The notes beneath the pieces were generated by a model. That model made no database searches. It was not told the DNA's origin and saw only the letters and a program-made list of their open reading frames with translations. A stretch of DNA of 64,000 nucleotides from Methanosarcina flavescens (GTDB taxonomy: Archaea; Halobacteriota; Methanosarcinia; Methanosarcinales; Methanosarcinaceae). Shown one piece after another: positions 4,789 to 8,857 of this stretch. Positions within the stretch are counted from its first letter, which is position 1; the number at the start of each line of letters is the position of its first letter. The translations under genes were made by a program, and so were the position numbers. The stretch covers positions 186,001 to 250,000 of the forward strand of contig NZ_CP032683.1 in assembly GCF_001304615.2 (NCBI RefSeq). The letters are read 5' to 3'.

Positions 4789-6653
4789 TTGAAAGGATCT
4801 CTTAAACCTGTAAGAGAATCAGGTACTAATCCTGCATTCCTGAAAATAGCTATTATAACTGTTACTCTACTGGTTCTTTTCTGTCTGATGCCCTCAGCTA
4901 GTGCAAGAGACTATACTCTGGAAGAAGCGACAACGAATATAACTATAGATCCCACAGGCATTGTTCATGTTGAGGAATCGATTTCATACACTTTTGATGG
5001 AGACTATAGTGAAGTTTTTAGAGTTCTTGAAGTGTCTCCAGGGGAATCTATTCGGAATATCCAGGGATATTGTTCGGATAATGCATGTACTTTCAGAGTT
5101 GAAGAGACATCCGAAGGATACGAGTTGATAGGTGAACTTCCAACCCCGACTCCTGAAAAAGTGACTTTTTTTGTTTCCTACGATCATTACGGTGTAGTTA
5201 AAGTCCATAACGATGTTTCCGAATTTACTATAAGCTCTGGGGCGAAGAATGGGAAAAATCTCTTGGAAACTTGAAAGGAAGCATTACACTCCCTGTTGAA
5301 AACGAGAGTGAGATTCGGTACTGGATACACCCGGCTGACTACACTCAGAATGTTAGTGTGGAAAAGAACACTCTCTATTTAAGGACGGGAGAAATTCCTT
5401 CATATCGATGGTATGAAATCAGAGTTGTTTTTCCAAGGATAGAATCTCCCAACTCCAGTATTGTTCAGATAGACAACTCAGAAGGCTTCGAAGAAATAAT
5501 GGCTATTGAGAATGAATACCAGCGAAAAGTATCAATTTTAAATAGCCTTTACGGTCTGACAGTTCTTTTCGCTCTCATTTATCTGGCAGTTCCCTTCCTC
5601 ATCTACTTCAAATATGGAAGAGAACCGAAAATAGACTACGAAGCAGTATATGAAAGAGAACCTCCCACCGATTCAAAACCTGCGATAGTCAATGCTATAA
5701 TGCAGGGGGAAATAGGCATCCCTACAATGGACGGATTTACTGCTACGGTTATGAACCTTGCCAACCTTGGTTATATTTCTCTTCGTACTATAACATCTGA
5801 AGAAAGCAAGGCATATGGTTTGTTTAAATCCAAATCTGAAGACATTTTAATTGAACTTGAAAGTCCAGAATCTTACGCGAAAGCTGAGGGGAAGTTCCCA
5901 GAACTAGCAGATTTCGAGAAAGACGTGCTCAATTTATTGAAAAAACATGCTTCTGGAAACAAAATTTCATGGAACAAACTGAAAAAAGAACTTGGAGAAG
6001 GGACAGATTTCTATGATTTTATTCTCGCCTGGGATGAGAAGGTTAAAAGACATATTGCAGTTGAAAAACTCTTCAAATCCACTGGGAACAAATACATGAG
6101 CATTTTCGGCGCAATTACTACAATTGCAGCAATCATTTATTTTATCGCAGTTTCTAATTTTTTCCCATCAGATGCATTCCCTCGGGCATCCAATGTAAAA
6201 ATACTTGTAATTTTGATTGCAGCTTTCGGGATAGTCATGATAATTTTCTCAGCGGTATTCGAAAAGGCGCTTGGGCGCTGGACTCCTGAAGGGAGGCTCT
6301 TTTATGAACGCTGGAACAACTTCAAAAAATACCTCACGGATTTTTCCGCGCTAAAAGAGCATCCTCCGGAATCCATTGAACTCTGGGACTCTTATCTGGT
6401 ATATGCAACCGCTCTTGGAGTTGCAGAAGAAGTCCTTAAAAACATGTCATTAGTGGTTCCTGCTGAACAAATGGAAACAAGCCATTTTTACTACGTGTAC
6501 CACAGCTTCGGCCAGTTCGGTTCAGGCTTTGAGAGTGCTTACTCATCTTCAGCTCCATCTTCAGCTCCATCTTCAGCTCCATCTTCATACGGAAGCGGGG
6601 GAGTAAGCGGAGTGGGCGGAGGTTCAGGTGGCGGAGGCGGTGGAGCCCGTTAA
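4789..6653 (+). pseudogene. Second DUF2207 protein, split by a one-base deletion
   Basis: This is a tandem paralogue of the preceding gene, similar throughout. The first frame (4789-5274) encodes the signal peptide (ending PSASA) and most of the DUF2207 domain. The second frame (from about 5228 to 6653) encodes the rest, from the YYKLWGEEWEKSLGNLKGS region to a Ser/Ala-Pro repeat (SSAPSSAPSSAPSS) and a Gly-rich tail. Against the intact copy (gaacttaactataag) this gene reads gaatttactataag at about 5221-5234, exactly one base short. Otherwise both halves are undamaged, so the break is recent, a sequencing error, or recoded. Start: TTG 4789, or an in-frame CTG at 4780 that is better spaced from GGAGG at 4768. 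The alignment of the two upstream regions favours 4780. Confidence 0.85.
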
Positions 6654-7699: not shown

Positions 7700-8857
7700 A
7701 TGAGACTTCGCTGGATAGATGCTTTAAAAGGAATCGGGATTATACTTGTTGTGTTTGCACATCATAAACTGCCGGTGGCGCTCGATACTTACATTTTTTC
7801 CTTTCATATGCCGCTTTTCTTTTTCATATCCGGGCTGCTGTTTGATTTCTGGAAATATGCATCATCGGCTGCAAATTTTGTAAAGAAAAGATTCAGGTCA
7901 CTTATCGTTCCTTACTTCGGTTTTGCCCTGCTTACCTGCCTGTTTTATTTATTACTGGATACATGGTACCAACCAGGGATCACGAACATTGACTTTTTCA
8001 AAGCCAGTCCTGCCGAAAACATTCACTCCATAGTGTATGCGCTGGGACCCCTGATCTCTTACAATCCTCCCCTCTGGTTCCTGACCTGCCTTTTTATAAC
8101 CGAGCTTCTCTTTTACGGGTTTGCAAAGAGATATTACACTGAACCGGGAAAGCTTATATTCTGGCTCACGGCTGTCGGAGTGATGGGGTATCTTTATTCG
8201 GTCTATGTGCCTTTCAGGCTGCCCTGGAATGCGGACGTGGCTCTCACAGCCGTGGTTTTTTATGGGGCCGGAAATTTATTCAGAAAATTCCTGGAACCCG
8301 AAGAGCGGAAACTGCTGGAAAAGCCTAAAGCTAGCCTGAGTTCCCAGCCCTAGCCAAATGCGAAACTCAGAAAAGGGTTTAATAAGGTCTGGAAGTTTCT
8401 TCCCGGTATTCTTACCTTTGTAAATCTGCTATATTTTGGATACCTTTTACACTTTCCTACGGCAGAAGAGATGAATATGAACGTGCTGAAATACGGAAAC
8501 TTCTTTTCTTACTACCTGCTGGGCTTCTCAGGAATTTTTACCTTTGTTTACCTCTTCAAAAACATCGGGAGTTCAAAGGTACTGGAATATTACGGGAGAA
8601 ATAGCCTGATTGTTCTTGCGCTTCACTTCCCCGTAAAAGATATTCTTATAAAACTTATAGTTCTGGTCTTTGTGATTGATGTTGAGGCTTATTATTACAA
8701 TGCCGGTTTTGCTCTTGGCTTAACGGTGCTGAACCTGCTCTGCCTGATACCTGTAATTTTCCTTATCAATAATTACTTCCCTTTCTTACTGGGAAAAAAG
8801 AGGTCTTCTGAGAGCTCTGGAGGATTGAGGGTTCGTTTGAGAAAATTCGTAAATTGA
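7700..8857 (+). CDS. Acyltransferase-3 family membrane protein with in-frame UAG codon
   Basis: The first 217 codons begin MRLRWIDALKGIGIILVVFA, then HHKLPVALDTYIFSFHMPLF, the acyltransferase-3 (OafA/NodX-like) signature with the catalytic-type His in VFAHH, followed by several membrane helices. Codon 218 is TAG (8351-8353). The same frame then stays open for 168 more codons that supply the missing helices (FVNLLYFGYLLHF, NFFSYYLLGFSGIFTFVYLF, then GRNSLIVLALHFPVKDI). The full length of about 385 residues matches the family; neither half does alone. The enzyme would transfer acyl groups to surface carbohydrates (family knowledge). In Methanosarcina, UAG can be decoded as pyrrolysine, so this may be a functional Pyl protein; alternatively it is an amber pseudogene. 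The site is in a polar loop (SSQP-stop-PNAKLRK), where an extra residue type would be tolerated. Confidence 0.75.

Follow-up and report, generated by a model that had tools for sequence, protein, structure and literature searches.

An in-frame TAG shared by two Methanosarcina species in an acyltransferase-3 gene is probably read as pyrrolysine

The window analysed here is a stretch of 64,000 nucleotides (positions 186001-250000) from the complete genome of Methanosarcina flavescens (3,283,688 bases; G000 in the coordinates below). Near its start lies a gene whose product can be assigned by sequence to the acyltransferase-3 family (PF01757) and is a predicted membrane enzyme, and the reading frame of this gene is interrupted by a TAG. 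An earlier note had placed this TAG at codon 218, with the same frame on both sides, and we confirm that it is in frame with the ATG at 7700 and with the TGA at 8855-8857. The features are as follows, all on the forward strand and numbered within the window.

7700-8857, forward: acyltransferase-3 gene, 385 codons if the TAG is counted as a residue, stop TGA at 8855-8857 (from the frame, PF01757 and orthologues)
7700-8350, forward: upstream part of 217 codons, which would be the product with UAG as a stop (dN/dS 0.19 against G029, a related genome introduced below)
8315-8359, forward: variable-length loop containing the TAG, codons 206-220, between two predicted helices (from the orthologue alignment and a predicted model)
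8351-8353, forward: TAG in frame as codon 218, presumably encoding pyrrolysine (from the frame and the same codon in G029)
8354-8854, forward: downstream part of 167 codons, subject to purifying selection (dN/dS 0.075 against G029, p 6.4e-11 against neutrality)
8471-8473, forward: first in-frame ATG past the TAG (codon 258), where translation would have to restart if the protein were made in two pieces

The 385-residue product of read-through has one match to Acyl_transf_3 (PF01757, residues 4-347, E 8e-30), which scores 104.4 bits across the TAG at a gathering cut-off of 31. The upstream and downstream halves occupy consecutive profile positions (2-203 and 204-312), and the segment FHMPLFFFISG is conserved in the product. 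Two adjacent in-frame genes can be ruled out, as one Pfam domain and the unbroken orthologues cross the TAG site, so that the region represents one gene and not two neighbours.

Orthologues were sought by protein search in 31 genomes from this genus, and only one other near-identical gene with a TAG was found, in genome G029 (3,127,379 bases), with 94% protein identity. There, too, the TAG is codon 218, in the identical setting CAG CCC TAG CCA, and the locus is syntenic, with LemA, DUF2207 and helicase genes as flanks in both genomes. The upstream DUF2207 gene (window 4789-6653) is itself divided in G000 into two overlapping ORFs, the two genomes differing by one base near 5216-5226; G000 thus has either a frameshift of its own or a sequencing error there. 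The closest TAG-free orthologue (86%), from MSH10X1 (G018), is likewise flanked by DUF2207 and helicase genes. A CAG in this orthologue is alignable with the TAG, though uncertainly so, given a two-codon length difference, and the TAG may possibly have arisen from such a CAG. In all, about 14 unbroken Methanosarcina orthologues have no stop at this site. Unbroken orthologues are mostly 376-408 residues long, so that the read-through length of 385 is normal for the family, as the earlier note had held. The gene is patchily distributed in the genus, being absent from some genomes and broken in several, and its nearest relatives outside the genus (about 40% identical) are from Bacillus and its relatives. 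A sequencing error as the source of the TAG can be ruled out, since the same TAG is present in the separately assembled G029; for the same reason it cannot be brand new. Most likely, it arose once, before G000 and G029 split.

The differences between these two genomes show how the gene has fared since then. The dN/dS is 0.19 for the upstream part and as low as 0.075 downstream of the TAG, where the differences comprise 24 silent and 6-7 replacement changes; for those 165 downstream codons to which MSH10X1 can be aligned the numbers are 24 and 6 (p 6.4e-11 against neutrality). When changes are polarised with MSH10X1, silent change predominates on both the G000 and the G029 branch. By codon position, the differences past the TAG number 4, 3 and 24, a pattern that is gone in the 102 bases beyond the final TGA (22, 20 and 23). 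Provided that, by parsimony, the shared TAG predates the split, this silent excess implies that the part behind the TAG has remained translated and of use ever since the species separated. To judge from the substitution pattern, the downstream part is kept by selection for protein, and the gene is alive. The TAG is the sole lesion, neither G000 nor G029 having an indel or a second stop; the earlier note had argued from this absence of other lesions, which is a weak argument on its own and is borne out by the downstream dN/dS. We therefore strongly disfavour a young pseudogene, in which function would have been lost with the TAG in the common ancestor, with decay not yet to be seen. Such a fate would be in line with a family that has been lost or broken in several Methanosarcina, but the downstream part shows no relaxation, and the explanation would be viable only if the TAG had arisen twice, and very recently.

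The position of the TAG within the protein is also informative. The loop around codon 218 differs among orthologues in length and in sequence, is often Ser/Gly-rich and has no conserved residues; no CAG, AAG or TGG is fixed at codon 218. A predicted model, built from 14 sequences (mean pLDDT 65.6, pTM 0.69), predicts helices at 178-206 and 221-251 joined by a coil (207-220) to which residue 218 belongs, with residues 199-219 modelled as coil at a pLDDT below 50. A PDB sequence search gave no match to the product, and Foldseek with this modest model returned nothing usable. The alignment and the model together suggest that residue 218 sits at a tolerant site, in a loop that is fixed in neither sequence nor length.

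A break in a loop between helices could also be a place to divide a protein, with UAG acting as a stop, translation restarting at Met258 (8471) or at an earlier non-standard start, and the two halves assembling in the membrane. Selection is indeed strongest in the part after Met258 (20 silent, 3 replacement), and in genome G001 (5.75 Mb) a frameshift in this very loop disrupts the orthologue (L048, G001:3295464-3296598). In that orthologue, the downstream part is well kept, and no usual start codon follows soon after the frameshift. Against such a division, the first ATG, GTG or TTG lies 39 codons past the TAG, none being present in 8354-8470, and a product starting at Met258 would omit the predicted helix 221-251, which is well kept among orthologues. 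The stretch from the TAG to the ATG at 8471 still leans towards silent change (4 silent, 3 replacement; p 0.048), with too few differences for a strong test, and the weakness of its own translation signal has to be counted as a point against read-through. From the sequence comparison and the model, we favour read-through over reinitiation at Met258 and consider a protein made in two pieces unlikely.

A route to read-through is encoded in the genome, as pylTSBCD, for which we searched, is complete in G000. PylS (G000:2010576-2011289), PylB, PylC and PylD exceed the NCBIfam equivalog cut-offs, and a tRNA-Pyl with a CTA anticodon (CUA), identified by ARAGORN, adjoins pylS in G000 and in G029. An mtmB gene with one TAG adjoins the pyl cluster, and an mttB gene with an in-frame TAG is found at G000:2175980. 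As a terminator, TAG is the least-used stop, ending 40 of 783 long ORFs (5.1%) in a 1.2 Mb sample, which can be set beside the approximately 4-5% of genes reported for Methanosarcina (PMC4153887). Archaea with pyl genes use UAG both as a sense codon and as a stop (PMC2933860), and pylB of G000 (L041:11224-12339, minus strand) itself apparently ends in TAG, which would then serve as a stop within the pyl cluster. In M. acetivorans, 20-30% full-length pyrrolysine protein was obtained from a foreign gene into which an amber codon had been introduced (PMC2933860). The RNA past the TAG at 8351-8353 folds no better than shuffled sequences and so has no excess structure; this does not count against pyrrolysine, since the PYLIS element has been reported as not essential for decoding (PMC2933860). 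The proposal of a candidate pyrrolysine codon, made in the earlier note, thus gains support from the pyl genes, the variable loop and the downstream purifying selection. The case in which that note would have given it up, a genome lacking pyl genes, does not apply.

The two genomes were also surveyed for other in-frame stops, using 1.2 Mb of each (about 673 kb of G000 was matched in the G029 part), dropping frames hidden under longer ORFs and requiring at least 45 open codons on each side. Conserved stops flanked on either side by a coding signal included three TAG cases, namely mtmB, mttB and the acyltransferase-3 gene, and within the approximately 670 kb shared these three, all TAG, are the only ones that lie convincingly inside one gene, a sorting done by reading, without a formal test. 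Strong conserved TAA or TGA cases were interpreted as gene ends, with another start codon following within 2-16 codons, and in three weak ones (G000:1977953, 2027305 and 2096980) the signal past the stop is poor or borderline. Viral contigs were scanned for a DNA pattern, which gave no match. An alternative is that UAG is read by near-cognate ordinary tRNAs, or by some other suppressor tRNA, in place of tRNA-Pyl. In bacteria that lack pyrrolysine, conserved in-frame stops have been reported to be read through (PMC7918605). Yet a dedicated UAG-reading tRNA and its synthetase are present here, and it is by UAG, the stop least used in G000, that the gene is interrupted in both species, so that we regard such reading as quite improbable.

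The explanation that we consider probable, on the evidence of the sequences, is that UAG-218 is partly read through as pyrrolysine and is a near-neutral codon in a tolerant loop. The ribosome would insert pyrrolysine at UAG-218 by means of the cell's own tRNA-Pyl and PylRS, yielding full-length acyltransferase-3, while competition by the release factor would leave some of the 217-residue fragment. The TAG would have arisen once before the G000/G029 split, in a loop without fixed sequence or length, and would persist since pyrrolysine is tolerated at 218 and not since it is needed. A point against this explanation is that the gene is dispensable in the genus, being broken in several genomes.

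We presume, accordingly with a tolerated residue, that pyrrolysine has no special role at 218. The opposite would be a UAG that is itself selected, with the pyrrolysine supply setting the amount of full-length enzyme or with pyrrolysine acting in the loop, and this we consider very improbable. There is just as slight a chance that the UAG is a switch, by which full-length enzyme would follow the pyrrolysine supply and so tie surface or lipid acylation to growth on methylamines. The TAG has outlasted a species split, as a selected codon would, and in the bacterium Acetohalobium pyrrolysine decoding does depend on the growth substrate (PMC8211752), but in Methanosarcina expression of the pyl cassette is reportedly constitutive (PMC4153887). 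Moreover, codon 218 lies in an unconserved loop, and other species do without the TAG.

To our knowledge, few natural pyrrolysine proteins have been documented besides the methylamine methyltransferases. Like MtmB, MtbB and MttB, the acyltransferase-3 gene has one in-frame TAG conserved across species with purifying selection on both sides; in those enzymes, however, pyrrolysine belongs to the active site, with a codon conserved throughout, whereas the TAG described here is in a variable loop and limited to two species. By analogy, it probably belongs with the in-frame amber of Thg1 (tRNA-His guanylyltransferase) of M. acetivorans, which Heinemann et al. 2009, as described in a review (PMC2933860), attribute to neutral evolution. 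Both are non-methylamine genes of a pyl-bearing Methanosarcina with one in-frame UAG at a dispensable site and with TAG-free orthologues; as for Thg1, we found orthologues without UAG and an unconserved site. The pyrrolysine residue of Thg1 has, as that review describes, been physically observed, while the acyltransferase-3 case is known from genes alone, and the Thg1 amber is described there for M. acetivorans only, in contrast to a TAG that is common to two species and affects a membrane protein. Further likenesses are the predicted non-methyltransferase pyrrolysine proteins of Ca. Methanomethylophilus alvus (PMC4153887), and the sequence-predicted clusters of amber-interrupted ORFs of Have et al. 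(PMC3639795), both of which concern ordinary genes with an in-frame TAG and TAG-free homologues. The main text of these two papers, as far as it was searched, names no acyltransferase-3 gene (PMC4153887, PMC3639795), and the searched text of the latter describes the M. thermophila genome as incomplete. The present candidate stands out in being found in two species, in its measurable selection signature, in lying outside methylamine metabolism and in being a membrane protein. One peptide could be enough to establish that, in Methanosarcina, amber codons acquired through drift survive as sense codons. Standard gene calling would split this gene or label it as a pseudogene.

The survey also gave four cases in which a stop in one genome corresponds to a sense codon in the other, three involving TAG and one TGA, and this excess of TAG fits a tolerance of UAG, though the numbers are small. 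A sodium/alanine symporter gene (TIGR00835; L069:14839-16266, minus strand; G000:355448) has a TAG for a CAG in G029, and both sides of the TAG appear constrained. An MFS transporter gene (L094:8921-10135, minus strand; G000:1849899) has an in-frame TAG where G029 has GAG. The reverse was seen for a weak squalene-hopene-cyclase-like match (L122:13032-13748, minus strand; G029:2373593), with a TAG in G029 for a CAA in G000, and this gene is near the pyl cluster. The TGA, corresponding to TGT in G029, is in a universal stress protein gene (L102:16360-16968, minus strand; G000:2016744).
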